DNA from: a virus
Length of the DNA stretch: 29,416 bases
Strand: one strand, 5' to 3'
IMG/VR virus record: IMGVR_UViG_3300001473_000090
Location: 1 to 29,416 of that record
A program made the position numbers and the translations under genes. Below the pieces are notes generated by a model, which ran no database searches, had not been told where the DNA came from, and was given only the letters and a program-made list of their open reading frames with translations. Shown here one piece after another: positions 15,487-26,504 of this stretch; the first letter of the stretch is position 1; each line of letters begins with the position of its first letter.

Positions 15487-15971
15487 GACGCCACCGCCTT
15501 CGGCCCGGAGTGCTCGGTGAGGTATCGGCAGCAGGCGATCTTCAGCGCCCTGACATGTGGAACCATGGCCCGATGTTCGGTCGCATCGATCTGGCCGTCT
15601 TCCAGCGCCTCACCGAGCGTGGCCGACATGGCCCCGACCTGCGCGTTGAACTTGTAGCCGTCGATGCCCTCGCCCTCGACGGCATGCGCGCCCTGCCCAG
15701 CGGGGCTGAGGATCTCTGACGTGAACGCCGGCCCGAGCGCGGCCATGATCCGCCAGAGCTTTTCGCCCAGCGGCACCTTGCCGTTCCGGTAGCCTTCGAG
15801 CGTGCGGACATCGAGGCCGGTGACTTCCGCAAGCGAGCGGATCGACCAGGGCTTACCCAGGCCCACGTGCCGGCGAAACGCATCACTCACGATCTCGGAG
15901 AGCAGGTCCGACGTGATCGCCGTGATCTTCCCGCTGTCAATGTTGACGGGGGCATCCTTAGTGTTCGGCAT
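15483..15971 (-). CDS. HTH transcriptional regulator (CII-like position)
   Basis: This 162-aa protein has a helix-turn-helix, SIRSLAEVTGLDVRTLEGYR (about residues 43-62), followed by NGKVPLGEKLWRIMAALGP. The C-terminal half is helical. The start at ATG 15971 has a near-ideal SD, GGAGGTGATC, 5 nt upstream; the longer TTG start at 15989 is therefore rejected. It follows the LexA-like protein in the cro operon, the place of CII-type activators in lambda-like phages. I did not recognise a named family, so the CII role is positional inference. Confidence 0.75.
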   Translation of the reverse strand: MPNTKDAPVNIDSGKITAITSDLLSEIVSDAFRRHVGLGKPWSIRSLAEVTGLDVRTLEGYRNGKVPLGEKLWRIMAALGPAFTSEILSPAGQGAHAVEGEGIDGYKFNAQVGAMSATLGEALEDGQIDATEHRAMVPHVRALKIACCRYLTEHSGPKAVAS

Positions 15972-16305
15972 GCGACGGATCACCTCCAATTCGGGAACTC
16001 ACTTGCCGGCACAGGTCACTGCCGAGCGCCTGCCCTTCGTTCAGGGCGGCCTTGACGGATGACCATGTGTCGGCATCAACGCGGATCTGGCCTTGACCGG
16101 TCCGCAGAACCTCGATCGCGCGGGCCTTGCCCGGAATGCGGCGGATGTAGCCGCGATCTTCCAAGCCAAGGATCAGGCGATCGATGCCAGATTTCGCCGC
16201 CAGCCCCATGGCTTCGGCCATCTCGTCAAACGACGGCGCGACGCCGGTCTGGCCAATGTGATCGTCCAGCAGATGAAGCAGTTTCGCTTGCTTCGCGGTC
16301 AGCAC
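15958..16305 (-). CDS. Stand-alone LexA-type winged-helix protein
   Basis: This 115-aa protein is the LexA N-terminal DNA-binding domain: LTAKQAKLLHLLDDHIGQTG, VAPSFDEMAEAMGLAAKSGI and LEDRGYIRRIPGKARAIEVL (residues about 1-68). The peptidase domain of LexA is absent; instead a short polar C-terminus follows. I start at the GTG at 16305 (GGGGG SD about 7 nt upstream), which puts LTAKQ next to the start as in LexA. An ATG at 16395 would add about 30 residues. It probably binds LexA-like (SOS) operators or phage operators, but it cannot be cleaved by RecA. Confidence 0.75.
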   Translation of the reverse strand: MLTAKQAKLLHLLDDHIGQTGVAPSFDEMAEAMGLAAKSGIDRLILGLEDRGYIRRIPGKARAIEVLRTGQGQIRVDADTWSSVKAALNEGQALGSDLCRQVSSRIGGDPSHAEH

Positions 16306-16354
16306 GTCGCGGCCCCCAGCCCATCGGCGTTGTCGTTCGACGTGTGCTGGCGGG

Positions 16355-16558
16355 TCACGGGGTGACAACCCATGCTGTGTCAGGACGGGCGCCATGAGAC
16401 GCTGGGATTGGCCCGACACTGTTTGTGCAGCGCGCGCAGCGATACTGCTCGCCTTCCGGGCCGTTCCAGTAGTCTTGCGGGATGTGCATGCGACCGGATG
16501 TTCCGGGCTTGGTCGGGTTCACAAATTGTCCGCACGTCACGCAATTCGGTGGATACAT
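16355..16558 (-). CDS. Small zinc-ribbon phage protein
   Basis: This 67-aa protein begins MYPPNCVTCGQFVNPTKPGT and later has EQYRCARCTNSVG: two C-x-x-C pairs 36 residues apart, a zinc ribbon. The ATG at 16558 overlaps the upstream stop by TGATG. It is followed by a 49-nt gap before the LexA-like GTG start. The function is unknown; such ribbons are frequent in phage early operons. Confidence 0.7.
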   Translation of the reverse strand: MYPPNCVTCGQFVNPTKPGTSGRMHIPQDYWNGPEGEQYRCARCTNSVGPIPASHGARPDTAWVVTP

Positions 16559-16899
16559 CACGGCTTGGGCTCCCAAAACACGCCGGCCTCTCCGCACCGC
16601 CCGTTGCGAGATCGCGCCTCATCGCACAATGCATTGTCGATGGTTGGCTGGCCCTTCGGGATATGCCAGCGCACAGCGCGGTTCATGCAGGTGTCGACGG
16701 ATCGACCCGAGCGGGGCTGGTCATCGTAATGGATGCAGTTGATGCAGGGGCGCTGCATACCAAGCTCGACGAATTCACGGTCTATTGCCGCGTAATCGGA
16801 TGCGGTTGGTCGTTCCGTGACTGGCCGGGCGCCAATGCCATCGGTCTCGTTAGGCGCGCCAACGTCAGCGCCGCATTCAAAGCAAACCTCCCCGCTCAC
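16558..16899 (-). CDS. Cysteine-rich phage protein, probable zinc binder
   Basis: This 113-aa protein has CFECG near the start, CINCIHYDD (about residues 52-60), a lone C in SVDTCMNRAV, then LCDEARSRNGRCG. The pairs suggest two zinc sites. The start is GTG at 16899 in a GTGA overlap with the Cro-like stop. No named family was recognised, but the RPCINCIHY type motif with C-terminal CD-E-R-RCG is common in alphaproteobacterial prophages. A regulatory or DNA-binding role is only a guess. Confidence 0.7.
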   Translation of the reverse strand: MSGEVCFECGADVGAPNETDGIGARPVTERPTASDYAAIDREFVELGMQRPCINCIHYDDQPRSGRSVDTCMNRAVRWHIPKGQPTIDNALCDEARSRNGRCGEAGVFWEPKP

Positions 16900-17111
16900 G
16901 CCGCGCCTCGCTCGTCGGGGGCCGGCATCTCCAAGAAGTCATTTGCTGTGACAGCGCCGTTGGTTACGCGGACGAGAACTTCGGCGACCTCTTTCGGAGG
17001 GTATGATTTGCCCGATCGGTAGCGACTTACCTGCGGTCGGCTAACGCCAAGCATTTCGGCCATCTGCCAATCGCGCAGATTATTGGCGGCCATGTAGTCT
17101 GAAAGCGTCAT
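16896..17111 (-). CDS. Cro-like HTH repressor
   Basis: This 71-aa protein starts at the ATG at 17111 (MTLSDYMAANNLRDWQMAEM). It has an HTH with QMAEMLGVSRPQVSRYRSGK (about residues 16-35) and ends with a short dimerisation-type tail. Size, HTH and divergence from a larger repressor are those of Cro. The promoter (17120-17148) puts the predicted start of transcription about 2 nt before the ATG, so the mRNA would be almost leaderless; no SD is seen. It is the first gene of the minus-strand early operon, joined by GTGA to the next gene. It should shut down the repressor gene and later its own operon. Confidence 0.85.
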   Translation of the reverse strand: MTLSDYMAANNLRDWQMAEMLGVSRPQVSRYRSGKSYPPKEVAEVLVRVTNGAVTANDFLEMPAPDERGAA

Positions 17112-17119
17112 GAGCCCGG

Positions 17120-17148
17120 AAAGTACGGGAAATGCACACTCTAGGCAA
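17120..17148 (-). promoter_or_regulatory. Predicted early promoter (PR-like) of the cro operon
   Basis: On the minus strand TTGCCT (17148-17143) and TACTTT (17125-17120) are 17 nt apart. The spacer contains GTGCAT (ATGCAC on plus, 17132-17137), one half of the palindrome found at 17192, so the repressor could block this promoter. Confidence 0.6.
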
Positions 17149-17191
17149 CCGGTTTTTTCGGACCTTCTCGCTTTCGGTTTAGCCCTCAAAA

Positions 17192-17206
17192 GTGCATAAC
17201 ATGCAC
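17192..17206. promoter_or_regulatory. Palindromic operator of the immunity region
   Basis: GTGCATAACATGCAC is a perfect 6+3+6 palindrome just upstream of the repressor gene, and half of it (ATGCAC) recurs inside the divergent promoter spacer. It overlaps a weak -10-like CATAAC on the plus strand. A repressor operator with autoregulation is the simplest reading. Confidence 0.65.
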
Positions 17207-17224
17207 AAATCCTCTGGGGGCATG

Positions 17225-17842
17225 ATGGCCAAGCCCAAGCATTTCATTCGCCAATGGAGAAAGTACCGCGGCCTCACGCTCAAAGACGTGGCCGCGCGAT
17301 GCGACTCGTCTCATGCCACGATCTCACGAATTGAGCGCGGCGCAGTCGCCTACACCCAGCAGAAACTAGAGTGCTTTGCGCGCGTCTTTCAATGCGCCGC
17401 CGGCGATCTGCTGACGAAGAATCCTCTTGAGGGGCCCGTCGGTGCTTCTGATGGCGGCCCCGACGTGGCTGCAACGCCACTAAGCAAGCCCAACTTCCTG
17501 AAGGATTGGCGAGACTTCAGAGGCTTGCGTCAGGCCAATATCTCGATGCTCTTGGGCCTGTCTACCCAACAGATCTCCAATATCGAACGGGGCGTTGGCG
17601 AACTGACGCCTGAACTATTGGATGCTTTCGCTGACATCTACAAGACAACAACAACCGACTTGCTGACCCGACCGCCGCCGAAACGAGCGCTCGCCAGAAG
17701 CCTCATCGACCGCCTTGATGAACGGGATTTCGCTGTTGCTTTGGCGTTACTCGAAGCCTTGGCCGAGCGCCCGGCCGCTCGCTCCACTACCGAGGCCGGC
17801 GTAACGGAGTCCGGGGCTATGCCGGAATCGAAACTGCGTTAG
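17225..17842 (+). CDS. Phage repressor with two tandem XRE HTH domains
   Basis: This 205-aa protein contains two XRE-type HTH domains: FIRQWRKYRGLTLKDVAARC with SSHATISRIERG (about residues 7-65) and FLKDWRDFRGLRQANISMLL with STQQISNIERG (about 90-145). They are clearly duplicated. A short helical tail follows; the S24/LexA-type peptidase domain of lambda CI is missing. It should therefore not be cleaved in the SOS response. The start at ATG 17225 uses GGGGG 4 nt upstream; ATG 17222 and GTG 17192 are alternatives. It is divergent from the Cro-like gene and its operator candidates lie between the two. Role as the immunity repressor: strong inference. Confidence 0.85.
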   Translation: MAKPKHFIRQWRKYRGLTLKDVAARCDSSHATISRIERGAVAYTQQKLECFARVFQCAAGDLLTKNPLEGPVGASDGGPDVAATPLSKPNFLKDWRDFRGLRQANISMLLGLSTQQISNIERGVGELTPELLDAFADIYKTTTTDLLTRPPPKRALARSLIDRLDERDFAVALALLEALAERPAARSTTEAGVTESGAMPESKLR

Positions 17843-17846
17843 AGCC

Positions 17847-18824
17847 TCACTGCAACCCCGCAAAAGGCGCGAACTTCTTCAGCTCAGCCTGCACCTCTGT
17901 CAACGAGCGCGCGCCAGTAGCCATCTGGACCCGCATCACAGCCGCCCTAATCGCTCCGCGCGAGATCGGCATGACTCGTGCAAGGTCGCCCTCCGCGTAC
18001 CCCTTCATGATGCCGAGTAACGCTTCAGATTGGTCTGTGTCGGTGCCGAACTTTGCGCCGTAGGCCACAACGGGCGAATACCTCATGGTCGGATCGAAGA
18101 AACGCACAACAGCGAGAACTTCGTCTGTGAGCGCGCTCGGCAGCCGGATCGGCTCAGCCTGGACCTGAACACGGCGCTGCCGCGAGTCGCCCATTTCCAA
18201 GGTCACGGTTGAATTCAGAGCGCTGCCGTTCTCGACTGCGGCCCGGATCGTTTCCAACAGGAATGATCGCGACGGCTGGCCCGGGCCGGTGATCCCGAAC
18301 TCGCCGTAGCTCACCACGTCAGGTGATTGCGACAAGAGGTCATCGACAGCCGCGTTTGCGCACACGATCGATCCGTTGCTCTTGACTATTGCGGTCGGCA
18401 CCTCGCCAAACACCAGCGCGTGCTTGAGGTCGACCAGCTTCCCCACCTCTTCAGAACTCTCTGCCTTCCACTCTCTGACCGTAACGATGTGGTCTTCATC
18501 AACGACCTCGTGGGCCGCAAACAACACGCGGCCATTGTTGTAGAAACGTGCCTGATAGGAAGATGGCTGAGTTGTCCGCCGAAGCATTATGGCTCGGTTG
18601 ATGTAATCCGAGTGGCTGATATTCATGTTTATGTTGACAAGGGATAAGCTAAGGGATTGCTCCATGTACTCCTGATACCACTTTGGTTGATATGTGAAGT
18701 TCTCTTCGAAGTACTCGTCGAGTATGGAATTCGTGTAAACTATCCTGCCTGCTTTCGTGGTCGCCATCACCTCGAAGCCATGGCTTGTCCAACTCCTTAT
18801 CTTTTCAAAGTAGATTCCCGCCAC
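17847..18824 (-). CDS. PAS-like sensor with LuxR-type HTH, transcription regulator
   Basis: This 325-aa protein has two PAS-like segments: FEVMATTKAGRIVYTNSILD (about residues 17-36), and HALVFGEVPTAIVKSNGSIV with CANAAVDDLL (about 134-165). At the C-terminus is a LuxR-like HTH: SEALLGIMKGYAEGDLARVM, PISRGAIRAAVMRVQMATGA and RSLTEVQAEL (about 268-318). It probably senses an internal signal and controls transcription. The start is GTG at 18824 with AGGGTG upstream. It is convergent with the repressor gene (4 nt between stops). Base composition is more AT-rich than the phage operons, so it was probably acquired as cargo. Ligand and target are unknown. Confidence 0.8.
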   Translation of the reverse strand: MAGIYFEKIRSWTSHGFEVMATTKAGRIVYTNSILDEYFEENFTYQPKWYQEYMEQSLSLSLVNINMNISHSDYINRAIMLRRTTQPSSYQARFYNNGRVLFAAHEVVDEDHIVTVREWKAESSEEVGKLVDLKHALVFGEVPTAIVKSNGSIVCANAAVDDLLSQSPDVVSYGEFGITGPGQPSRSFLLETIRAAVENGSALNSTVTLEMGDSRQRRVQVQAEPIRLPSALTDEVLAVVRFFDPTMRYSPVVAYGAKFGTDTDQSEALLGIMKGYAEGDLARVMPISRGAIRAAVMRVQMATGARSLTEVQAELKKFAPFAGLQ

Positions 18825-18940
18825 GATGACACCCTAGGAAAGCCACCTGCGCTCTATCTCTGGGGGCTAGCGCATAGATAGAAAATGTAATACACTTCTA
18901 ATGTATAAACTAGTTTTGCAATTTCGTGAAGGGGTAAAGG

Positions 18941-19324
18941 ATGGCTCTACCAATCAAGGAAATCGAAACGCGGCTCGTTGAGGCCGGTCACTCCGACGAA
19001 GAGGCGCGGCTAGCCGGCCGTCTCTACAAGATGTTTGTCGCGTTCGCTGGGCAGCATCCAGGCCGGATGATTGCCCCGCCCTACTTAGCCGACATGGCTT
19101 GGCACGAACACTTGGCGATGGCGGGTTATACTCAGGACACAGTAGCGGCCTGCGGGCGGGCGTTGGTGCATGACGCTGACGAATTTGACAGCGAGCCCTT
19201 CTGGGAAGCGTGGGCGTTTTCTCGCGAATTGTTCAGCGAAGAGGGGGTGAACCTTCCGCGCAGAGGCGAGGATTCTGCCGGTTCCAGCCTTCGGCCGCAT
19301 ACATGCGTTGTCTTGGCTGCTTAA
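18941..19324 (+). CDS. WHEHL-motif protein of unknown function
   Basis: This 127-aa protein has an AAAGG SD 1-5 nt before the ATG. The segment PPYLADMAWHEHLAMAGYTQ (about residues 46-65) resembles the DxxWHxHL-x-x-x-x-Y motif of glycine-rich-domain (GRDP/DUF1399-type) proteins, and YxxD(M)xWHEHL is its hallmark; HDADEFDSEPFWEAW follows. I cannot name a reaction; the two His could bind a metal. It is transcribed divergently from the PAS regulator across a 116-nt AT-rich gap, so that regulator may control it. Moderately sure that it is a gene, unsure of its family. Confidence 0.7.
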   Translation: MALPIKEIETRLVEAGHSDEEARLAGRLYKMFVAFAGQHPGRMIAPPYLADMAWHEHLAMAGYTQDTVAACGRALVHDADEFDSEPFWEAWAFSRELFSEEGVNLPRRGEDSAGSSLRPHTCVVLAA

Positions 19325-19450: not shown

Positions 19451-20194
19451 ATGGCTAAGCCGGATCAGATACCGACTGACCTCACCATTGATCTCGGAGA
19501 CGAACTCGCCCCCGACGAGTTTGTTGGCGCTGTCCGGAGTTTCTTTGGCTATGTTTCTGAAATCACAGAGGCCCAACGGGGCGACGGCTCCGAGATAAGC
19601 TGGACGGTGCGCGTGAAGGAGGGCAGCGCACTCATCGGTGTGGAGCCAAACGCAGCGGCCCCAACGTCTCGCCTCGCCATGATATATGCAAAGGCCATGC
19701 ACGGCCCATTGTCTTTGGCTAAAGGCGATATTCAAGGCGCCGGCCTCACTGAGAAGGCCATCGGACACCTGAAAAGCCTGTCTGACTTGGCTGAAAAGAA
19801 GCGAGACGGTGAGGGCGTTAGGCTGTGGGTGGAACGTAGGGCCGTCAGTATAAAAGGGGCTATCGCAAAAACCATCCGCGAAGACTGGGAAAGCGATTAC
19901 TACGACTACGGCACTATTGAGGGCAGGCTAGAGGCAATTCTTGACGCTAGAGGAGCCCTAAAAATAAGGGTTAAGGACTTCCTGTATTCCCGGCCGATTA
20001 GCTGCGTTGTTCCGGAAAAGCTGATTGACAAGGTGCTTAGTAGTTTTCGCCGCAGGGTCGAGATAGATGGCCGCATTCACTATCGCAAGAACGGCACGCC
20101 AATAAGCATAGAAGCCGATAACATTGGCCTTCTCCCGGAAGATGACGAGTTGCCGACCCCTGACGATGTCCGCGGAATCATGGTGTCTGCGTGA
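19451..20194 (+). CDS. Partner protein of the PIN cassette, unknown family, OB-like C-terminus
   Basis: This 247-aa protein has an N-terminal mixed alpha/beta part (about 1-145) with no recognised family. From about residue 150 the segment YYDYGTIEGRLEAILDARGA, LKIRVKDFLYSRPISCVVPE and RVEIDGRIHYRKNGTPISIE gives alternating beta strands like a small barrel. The stop overlaps the GTG start of the PIN gene by GTGA, so the two are translated together. It has the antitoxin's usual place (first gene), but it is larger than VapB and has no visible AbrB, RHH or HTH domain. The promoter, palindrome and terminator that bracket the pair make it a self-contained, AT-richer cassette. Antitoxin or sensor role is inferred. 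Confidence 0.8.
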   Translation: MAKPDQIPTDLTIDLGDELAPDEFVGAVRSFFGYVSEITEAQRGDGSEISWTVRVKEGSALIGVEPNAAAPTSRLAMIYAKAMHGPLSLAKGDIQGAGLTEKAIGHLKSLSDLAEKKRDGEGVRLWVERRAVSIKGAIAKTIREDWESDYYDYGTIEGRLEAILDARGALKIRVKDFLYSRPISCVVPEKLIDKVLSSFRRRVEIDGRIHYRKNGTPISIEADNIGLLPEDDELPTPDDVRGIMVSA

Positions 20195-20673
20195 CGGTCG
20201 AAAAAATATACTGGGACAGTGATTGCTTTTTGGGATTTTTTCAGGCTGAACCCGAAAAAGTCGGCAAGTGCGGCGCCGTTATAGATCGAGCTGAGCTTGG
20301 CGATGTGCTGATTGTAACGTCGGCCCTCACTATTGCTGAAGTGCTTTGGATGAGGAACGCGCCCAAACTCCGCAAGGAGAAAGCGGATGTGCTTCGGCGG
20401 TTTTTTCGGCGCTCGATCATGCGTGTCCACAATGTCACGAGAAAAATCGCTGAGGATGCTCAGGACCTTGTTTGGGACCATTCAATCAAACCAAAGGACG
20501 CGCTACACGTTGCCACCGCTCTGCACTTAAGGGTGGATGCGCTCGAAACGTTTGATGAACGGCTGCTTTCCAAAAGCGGCACAGTTGGCAGCCCTCTTCT
20601 GCTCATACGGGAGCCACAAGACCATGCCCAAGGATCCATGAATTTAGTGCTGCCGGGAGGCGAGCCAGCCTAG
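20191..20673 (+). CDS. PIN-domain ribonuclease (VapC-like)
   Basis: This 160-aa PIN domain has its four acidic positions: D in KIYWDSDCFLGFF (about residue 9), E in SALTIAEVLW (about 50), D in KPKDALHVATAL (about 103), and D in LETFDERLL (about 121). PIN proteins cleave RNA in a metal-dependent way; VapC toxins do so on tRNA or rRNA. The start is GTG, overlapping the previous stop. A strong terminator (20705-20729) follows. Toxin of a TA-like pair is the first hypothesis; a defence effector that is activated by the large partner is the alternative. Confidence 0.85.
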   Translation: MTVEKIYWDSDCFLGFFQAEPEKVGKCGAVIDRAELGDVLIVTSALTIAEVLWMRNAPKLRKEKADVLRRFFRRSIMRVHNVTRKIAEDAQDLVWDHSIKPKDALHVATALHLRVDALETFDERLLSKSGTVGSPLLLIREPQDHAQGSMNLVLPGGEPA

Positions 20674-20704
20674 GCCAACCCTCAACCTTGTATGCTAGCC
20701 ACCA

Positions 20705-20729
20705 CCCCGCCCCGGCGGGGTTTTCTTTT
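20705..20729 (+). terminator. Rho-independent terminator after the PIN gene
   Basis: CCCCGC and GCGGGG form a 6-bp stem (CCCG loop), followed by TTTTCTTTT. It ends the two-gene PIN transcript and insulates the plus operon. Confidence 0.9.
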
Positions 20730-25044: not shown

Positions 25045-25764
25045 ATGCTTCGTCACCTCGATCTGTTTTCTGGCATCGGCGGGTTCGCGCTTGGTTTGGA
25101 ACGCACGGGCGGTTTCCAGACAGTAGGCTTCTGCGAGATCGACCCCTATTGCCAGCGCGTGTTGGCGAAACACTGGCCGGGTGTGCCGATCTATGACGAT
25201 GTCCGAACCCTTGACCCAGCAGCAATTGGACCTGTGGACATCGTCACGGGCGGGTTCCCATGCAAACAGACAAGTGTCGCCGCTGCGATCCACGGAAAGC
25301 GCACGGGTCTTGATGGCCAGGAAAGCGGCCTATGGTGGGAGTATCTGCGACTTGTGCGCGCCATCCGGCCAGCTTGGGTCGTTGTCGAAAATCCAACAGG
25401 CGTCAATGCATGGGCCAGTGAAATCGCTGGTGGTCTGGCGGGGACTGGCTACCGAGTTTCCCGACACGAACTGTCGGCTGCGGATCTTGGTGCGCCTCAT
25501 GCGCGAAGGCGTGTCGTCTTTGTTGCCAACCGTCACGTCAAGGGATTGGAGGTCGCCTGGCCGGCCGGATCACCCCAGATTGCTGCGCTCCCGTGGCCTG
25601 CCTCTTCCCGAGACCTTTGGCGAGCGGATCAGTCCGGAACTCTGCGAATGGATGATGGGCTTCCCGATCGGATGGAGCGAATTGTGAGCCTTGGGAACGC
25701 ATTCATGCCTCAGAAGGCGCAAGCGATCGGCTACGCGATCCTCAAAGCGGAGAACGCCCCATGA
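25045..25764 (+). CDS. DNA cytosine C5 methyltransferase (Dcm-type)
   Basis: This 239-aa protein has motif I DLFSGIGGFALGLE (about residues 5-18), motif IV TGGFPCKQTS with the catalytic PC (about 68-78), motif VI VVVENPTG (ENV-type, about 112-118), motif VIII ARRRVVFVA, and motif X SLGNAFMPQKAQAIG near the end. It methylates cytosine C5. The target-recognition region between VIII and X is short (about 60 residues), so the protein is small for the family but has all main motifs. No endonuclease neighbour is seen; orphan, likely anti-restriction. It overlaps the next gene by ATGA. Confidence 0.92.
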   Translation: MLRHLDLFSGIGGFALGLERTGGFQTVGFCEIDPYCQRVLAKHWPGVPIYDDVRTLDPAAIGPVDIVTGGFPCKQTSVAAAIHGKRTGLDGQESGLWWEYLRLVRAIRPAWVVVENPTGVNAWASEIAGGLAGTGYRVSRHELSAADLGAPHARRRVVFVANRHVKGLEVAWPAGSPQIAALPWPASSRDLWRADQSGTLRMDDGLPDRMERIVSLGNAFMPQKAQAIGYAILKAENAP

Positions 25765-26504
25765 CCACCCCGCCGACGCCGCCCGCGCCGCTGCCGCCGA
25801 GTGCGCGGGATGTCACGATTGGCCCGTGTCGGCTGATCTGTGCAGATGCCCTGCAGGTCATGCCCGGCTTGCCGTCGGTCGATACGATCCTGACCGATCC
25901 GGTCTGGCCCAATGCGCCCGCGAACTCGGTGGCCGGCTCCAATGATCCGTGGGCGCTTTGGTCCGATGCCTGCGCGTCGATGCCCGAAACCAAGCGGACA
26001 ATCGTGGTGATGCGCTGCGACAGCGATCCCCGCTTCCTGCAAACCGTGAAGGGCAAGTTCTTCCGCTCAATGCAGTTGCCCTACGTCATGCCAGGTTATC
26101 TTGGCCGCGTGCTTGGTGGCGACGAGACCGCGTACTGGTTTGGCGACCCGATCAAATGGGCAGATGGGCGCCGCGTTGTGCCCGGTCGCGGTCCAAGAGT
26201 TCAGCCCGGCGGGAGATCCGCGAACGATCATCCTATGTCGCGCGCTCAACAGCACTTCGATTGGCTGGTTCATTGGTGTAGCGACGATGACGAATTGGTT
26301 CTTGACCCGTTCATGGGTAGCGGAACGACCGGCGTCAGCTGCGTCAAGATGGGTCGCCGGTTCATCGGAATTGAGATTGACCCCGGCTTTTTCGACATCG
26401 CCTGCAGACGCATTCAAGAGACCGTTGACCAGCCAAGCCTATTCACCCCCGCCGGCCGCGCGGCGCTAAGGGCGATGGAAGGAAAAGACAATGCCACACC
26501 ATAG
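25761..26504 (+). CDS. Beta-class DNA methyltransferase with DPVW catalytic motif
   Basis: This 247-aa protein has the catalytic motif first, DTILTDPVWPNAP (about residues 41-53), and the SAM motif I at LVLDPFMGSGTTGVSC (about 184-199) with IGIEIDPGFFDIACRRI after it. That order is the beta class (N4-cytosine or N6-adenine). DPPW/Y is replaced by DPVW; Val at the second proline occurs in some phage methylases and may alter activity. ATGA joins it to the C5 methylase and its end overlaps the next gene by 14 nt. Anti-restriction is the likely role. Confidence 0.88.
   Translation: MTTPPTPPAPLPPSARDVTIGPCRLICADALQVMPGLPSVDTILTDPVWPNAPANSVAGSNDPWALWSDACASMPETKRTIVVMRCDSDPRFLQTVKGKFFRSMQLPYVMPGYLGRVLGGDETAYWFGDPIKWADGRRVVPGRGPRVQPGGRSANDHPMSRAQQHFDWLVHWCSDDDELVLDPFMGSGTTGVSCVKMGRRFIGIEIDPGFFDIACRRIQETVDQPSLFTPAGRAALRAMEGKDNATP

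Follow-up and report, generated by a model that had tools for sequence, protein, structure and literature searches.

A diverged PAS-LuxR-like regulator and a GRDP-like small protein in a virus record resemble a probable sensor module of Azospirillum plasmids and phage Cd

The regulator gene at positions 17847–18824 (minus strand) of the virus record IMGVR_UViG_3300001473_000090 is more aptly viewed as half of a conserved sensor module than as a prophage regulator standing alone. The other half is the neighbouring gene at 18941–19324 (plus strand), whose 127-aa product is homologous, by profile comparison, to the GRDP-like (glycine-rich domain-containing protein-like) family PF07173. The balance of the evidence tips slightly towards a reading in which the regulator is a diverged one-component regulator of PAS-PAS-LuxR type that forms, together with the GRDP-like protein, a sensor module of the Azospirillum type, carried as phage cargo beside the immunity repressor. 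Regulator and small protein probably function as a unit that senses the state of the host cell.

The window, by which we mean the whole stretch of DNA analysed, comprises 29,416 bases of a virus record that names no host and may be a fragment. Terminase, portal and head genes occupy its left part on the minus strand, while recombination genes, methyltransferases (two of them side by side at 25045–26504, within the recombination region) and an integrase occupy its right part on the plus strand. Between the two arms lies an immunity region with a Cro-like and a repressor-like gene. The Cro-like HTH gene (16896–17189, minus strand; HTH_3, E 7e-6) is divergent from the probable immunity repressor (17192–17842, plus strand), which carries two XRE-type HTH domains (HTH_31, E 2e-19; HTH_3, E 2e-18), and both fall into the PHROG category transcriptional regulators and repressors. 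Because no peptidase domain was found among the Pfam matches of the repressor, RecA-linked self-cleavage is not expected. A perfect palindrome, GTGCAT-AAC-ATGCAC (17192–17206), which has a single exact match window-wide, is by its sequence a candidate repressor operator; since it spans the GTG listed as start codon of the repressor gene, translation more probably starts at the ATG at 17222 or 17225. Just past the Cro-like gene, 15958–16419 encodes a LexA-type DNA-binding domain (PF01726, E 1.5e-15), and here as well a peptidase domain was absent from the Pfam matches. At 19451–20673, an overlapping gene pair encodes an orphan 247-aa protein and a PIN-domain protein (PF01850, E 1e-14); it is followed by a terminator-like site (20704–20721) and resembles a defence or toxin-antitoxin-like cassette. 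Neither this pair nor the regulator and its small neighbour had a match in Padloc. Scanning of the window returned two promoter-like sites (2.0 expected) and seven terminator-like sites (4.6 expected).

The regulator gene is real, as had been proposed in the initial annotation, with 325 intact codons from a GTG start and a GC content by codon position of 0.57/0.42/0.71, which is coding-like. The chance of an open frame this long at the gene's own base composition is ~2e-6, and the other frames of the locus contain 5–15 stops each. Its tail-to-tail position with the immunity repressor was likewise borne out, the two stop codons being 4 nt apart, and no terminator-like site was found between them. 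Such an arrangement could mean that minus-strand transcription running antisense into the repressor gene is the main effect of the locus and that the encoded protein is secondary. However, the coding-like codon positions and the conserved protein partner indicate that the protein matters, and convergent gene arrangements of this kind are common in phages, which leaves transcriptional interference a very improbable main function. The host-like composition attributed to the gene was unsupported: the regulator has 56.4% GC compared to ~64% for the virion genes and sits within a lower-GC stretch of the window, and the record names no host against which composition could be judged.

Comparison of the regulator with Pfam, PHROGs and NCBIfam yielded nothing above cut-off, a PDB sequence search gave chance-level matches only, and in a tblastn search of the phage collection nothing matched at E 1. 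Single-sequence searches of viral contigs, phages, plasmids and genome contigs revealed no close relatives; two of these searches were pattern-seeded, a procedure by which distant relatives can be missed. For the C-terminal 81 aa (residues 245–325; 17850–18092, minus strand), single-sequence AlphaFold2 gave a model with a mean pLDDT of 67.7, in which the predicted helices (H19–34, H37–40, H45–59 and H64–72 of the segment) follow each other in LuxR-type order. Foldseek with this model returned 0 matches at E 0.001 or better. In a second look with VIA-align against 92 chains, ten reached Z 2; LuxR-type HTH proteins made up six of the top seven entries, all at a low Z of 3.3–4.3: GerE (6jqs, Z 4.3), phage VqmA (7dwm, Z 4.0), V. 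cholerae VqmA (6ide, Z 3.9) as well as FixJ, spr1814 and CviR, the last three of which we take to be LuxR-type proteins. It is the agreement in the kind of matches, rather than the low Z values, that argues for a likely LuxR-type HTH in this model. Compared to 5,000 shuffles of itself, the segment ranked 13 out of 5,001 against the LuxR profile and 154 out of 5,001 against the HTH profile of the module family described below, whereas the GerE domain (PF00196) was undetected in the window and in the regulator even at E 10. In favour of the LuxR-type HTH claimed initially are a weak profile signal and helices in the appropriate order, but PF00196 was not recovered and the fold is of low confidence in both pLDDT and Z. 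Taking both sides together, we consider it quite likely that the C-terminus is LuxR-type. The undetectable GerE domain, the weak HTH scores and the absence of close relatives from the collections searched could also be signs of a decaying gene with a degenerate HTH, whose product is no longer a functional DNA-binding protein. Set against this, the 325-codon frame is intact, GC at third codon positions (0.71) is coding-like and the partner gene is intact, so that we rate decay as highly improbable.

The two PAS-like segments fared unequally. The second (18108–18401, minus strand; ~residues 142–239) matched PF00989 at E 0.074, below cut-off, and is favoured by low-Z fold matches: although folding the full-length regulator from its single sequence gave a poor model (mean pLDDT 43), this consisted of mixed strand-helix segments followed by a C-terminal helix run, and residues 175–249 of this low-confidence model matched LOV/PAS chains and the PAS domain of VqmA at Z < 4.5, which we used as weak support only. 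For the first segment, a Pfam match was absent, and residues 66–112 align weakly to the N-terminal half of Azospirillum PAS-LuxR proteins. The combined profile and fold signals, both weak, make a sensor-regulator plausible.

The neighbouring small gene led to the relatives of the pair. A tblastn search with the 18941 protein, which contains a WHEH motif and ends in CVVLAA, revealed relatives on eight Azospirillum plasmid records. At locus L024, the small gene adjoins a gene for a helix-turn-helix regulator of 351 aa that weakly matches PAS_7 and GerE, and the same pairing is found at L025–L027. Locus L028 encodes a more divergent partner with a 381-aa PAS-LuxR regulator directly upstream, in reversed gene order compared to L024. 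In the reverse test, the L024 regulator (P0001) was the sole tblastn query and matched 12 of 72,556 plasmid records, with the small gene adjacent in all 12 (nine regions were viewed, and three were assigned from coordinates). These records, comprising four of the L024 type, the three assigned from coordinates, A. lipoferum (L087) and four of one further type, represent three lineages rather than 12 events; L028 is a fourth. Because the tblastn searches with small proteins had missed the partner genes at L087 and L088, the test with P0001 comes close to an independent check. In addition, GerE matches are sparse in the records W05 (five in 2.05 Mb) and W01 (three in 0.64 Mb), and in both, one of them directly adjoins the sole strong small-gene match; this adjacency is unlikely to be due to chance, for which a rough 2-kb count gives ~1–2% each. 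Homologues of the 18941 protein adjoin PAS-LuxR genes on Azospirillum plasmids and in phage Cd, which supports the earlier suggestion of a possible link between the regulator and the cassette at 18941.

A profile built from five partner proteins, with the window left out, matched the 18941 protein with 60.9 bits (E 1.1e-20), while the best of 2,000 shuffles reached 1e-4. Its rows (L024, L026, L028, L087 and L088) stand for four partner-protein groups; L027 was left out of the profiles as a near-duplicate, and the phage Cd-type copies L094–L096 were also absent. On these sequence comparisons, the homology of the 18941 protein to the PAS-LuxR partner proteins is solid. The window protein itself had no Pfam match at E 5, and so did not pass the curated cut-off of PF07173, which the L028 partner does pass (29.3 vs 22.7 bits). 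Of the papers listed for PF07173, most deal with plant proteins. All five of the aligned partners (window, L024, L028, L087 and L088) have a cysteine in the tail and an Ala-Ala end, and the LAA end of the window protein is like that of ssrA-type degrons.

Locus L088 is 100% identical to Azospirillum phage Cd (NC_010355) over 75% of the length of L088. In phage Cd, an EamA transporter (gp01), a PAS-LuxR regulator (gp02), a small protein (gp03) and an HTH regulator (gp04) follow in this order, gp04 being on the opposite strand and tail to tail with the module. BLASTP aligned the small protein of the window to gp03 at E 3e-7 and the window regulator to gp02 at E 3e-4, the latter over one 58-aa stretch. 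With a family profile of six regulators (L024, L025, L026, L028, L087 and L088), to which two of its stretches align, the window regulator scored E 4.7e-6 (one sequence) and ranked first against 2,000 shuffles and the other window ORFs, by a narrow margin over the best shuffle (3.6e-5). In the alignment, it is 16–18% identical to the module regulators, and BLASTP against P0001 gave it no match below E 0.13. From these comparisons, homology of the window regulator to the module regulators is probable, a grading that leans on the solid homology of the partners. A 216-aa HTH protein beside the L088 pair was considered as the equivalent of the window's repressor and rejected, as BLASTP found no similarity. 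When 27 chosen ORFs of the window were compared with phage Cd, three matched at E 1e-3, namely two early genes (weakly) and the small protein. Since the window and phage Cd are otherwise nearly unrelated, the module would sit in two different temperate phages. Both are probably phages of alphaproteobacteria, which is certain for phage Cd only. Scans of viral contigs with the partner alignments recovered a single contig, IMGVR_UViG_2551306490_000002, with a match 100% identical to the phage Cd-type pair, and the scan with alignment A6 found no contig.

A general pairing of GRDP-like small proteins with PAS-LuxR regulators was rejected. The small-protein searches listed 20 and 22 records, and at the ten distant loci that were examined (Cupriavidus twice, Variovorax, Rhizobium, Azospirillum B510, A. 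ramasamyi, Halomonas, Deinococcus, Piscirickettsia and Stanieria), a PAS-LuxR neighbour was seen in none, indicating that the pairing is a trait of one subclade. For L035, L037, L038 and L039, ORFs were inspected by eye, for L036 and L040–L044 the annotation was used; the Streptomyces (H133), Macrococcoides (H135), Rhizobium (H130 and H155), Planktothrix (H150) and Rhodococcus (H156) records were left out, and the Variovorax record W10 lay outside the GerE scan. Some of the distant loci adjoin other signalling genes, such as those for an EAL protein, a kinase-like ORF or a LuxR and AHL synthase pair. Several distant GRDP-like proteins (L035, 2971–3579; L036, 2995–3609; L037, 2974–3549; L039, 2842–3435) have tandem Cys-containing tail repeats, with AYCAR in Cupriavidus, AWCSL in Variovorax and ADCLREA in Azospirillum B510, which to us resemble the repeated core segments of modified peptides.

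Whereas all other pairs are tandem, the window pair is divergent, and the two start codons enclose a 116-bp gap (18825–18940) as a shared control region, in which a sigma-70-like promoter was not found. It contains the palindrome ATACA-N7-TGTAT (18890–18906), a candidate operator whose pattern was chosen after viewing the sequence; the match is exact and the sole one in the window, and 9 of 100 shuffles match at ≤1 mismatch. In the favoured reading as an Azospirillum-type sensor module, the PAS segments would bind a small molecule or a redox cofactor, and the HTH dimer would bind the divergent region, perhaps at the 18890–18906 palindrome. The bound regulator would switch the small gene, whose product would act as module output or as co-regulator. 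The module would be host-derived, of alphaproteobacterial (Azospirillum-type) origin, and picked up by temperate phages. The module may also influence induction of the phage itself; the reading does not need this, because the module is also found on plasmids beside transporter genes, and for the same reason a cellular role would be primary and a role in phage control secondary.

On the plasmids, the module adjoins ABC-transporter or EamA genes. EamA transporter genes were seen next to it at L087 (1550–2482), in L088 and in L094–L096, and after the A. lipoferum module, two more short ORFs with LuxR-like HTH sequences were noticed by eye (L087, 4727–5956). As the EamA transporters of phage Cd and A. 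lipoferum share 48% identity, the host-side unit may comprise three genes including EamA; no such gene was noticed in the window. These transporter neighbours, together with the position of the window module in a lower-GC stretch with the PIN-domain cassette, as is typical of cargo, would also suit pure lysogenic conversion, in which host promoters would be the targets of the regulator and the small protein would serve as an effector of host physiology, leaving the decision between lysis and lysogeny untouched. However, the position of the module, which abuts the repressor in the window and lies near gp04 in phage Cd, also fits a link to phage control, and we regard conversion alone as unlikely.

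PMC10432266 and PMC8284805 describe VqmA of phage VP882 as a PAS plus HTH protein, and TF-smORF modules as a regulator with a counter-oriented small ORF that acts on the repressor. By this model, the ligand-bound regulator of the window would activate the small gene, and the small protein would inactivate the repressor, resulting in induction free of DNA damage. Regulator, counter-oriented small ORF and repressor indeed lie together in the window, as in TF-smORF modules, the HTH model has VqmA chains among its top structural matches, the repressor is not expected to undergo RecA-linked self-cleavage, and the phage Cd module faces an HTH gene in the same way. In contrast, the small protein has 127 aa and belongs to a family that also occurs on non-phage plasmids and in many bacteria, and the HTH proteins beside the modules of the window and phage Cd are unlike each other. 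A switch of the VqmA-Qtip type is accordingly an unlikely explanation, and a manner of working like that of TF-smORF modules is possible for the window module. More speculative still, and in our estimate improbable, is that two nearly unrelated temperate phages share the module as an SOS-independent input into lysis-lysogeny, in which the regulator would read a host or population signal and the GRDP-like protein would be a new antirepressor or, more boldly, with its conserved Cys-containing tail ending in Ala-Ala being processed, a precursor of the signal itself.

Only a small and recent class of phages reads signals of the host or its population, and the main worked examples in PMC10432266 and PMC8284805 are VqmA-Qtip and the LuxR/XRE-smORF modules found in phages of Vibrio and Aeromonas. 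The phage Cd pair would add a testable case in another bacterial class. The host of phage Cd, Azospirillum brasilense, is a culturable and harmless plant-root bacterium. For the widespread and unexplained GRDP-like small proteins of bacteria, the pairing would provide a first context. The titles and abstracts listed by literature searches, a set without the phage Cd genome paper, do not describe a pairing of PAS-LuxR regulator and small protein.

Compared with the known systems, the module of the window resembles in content phage Cd gp02-gp03 and the Azospirillum plasmid pairs, where a PAS-LuxR-type regulator likewise lies directly beside a homologous GRDP-like protein. Phage Cd additionally shares the tail-to-tail position of the module with an HTH gene, whereas the tandem order of these pairs, which in phage Cd and A. 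lipoferum have an EamA gene next to them, differs from the divergent order of the window. With the TF-smORF modules of PMC10432266, the window shares the opposed orientation of regulator and small ORF within a temperate phage. Yet those small ORFs have 171 nt and 156 nt and belong to linear plasmid-like phages (repA, telN), while the window record, possibly a fragment, has an integrase gene, and the small protein of VqmA-Qtip is of another size and family than the 127-aa GRDP-like protein. The window module may therefore work like TF-smORF modules rather than belong to them, its small protein being of a different family.
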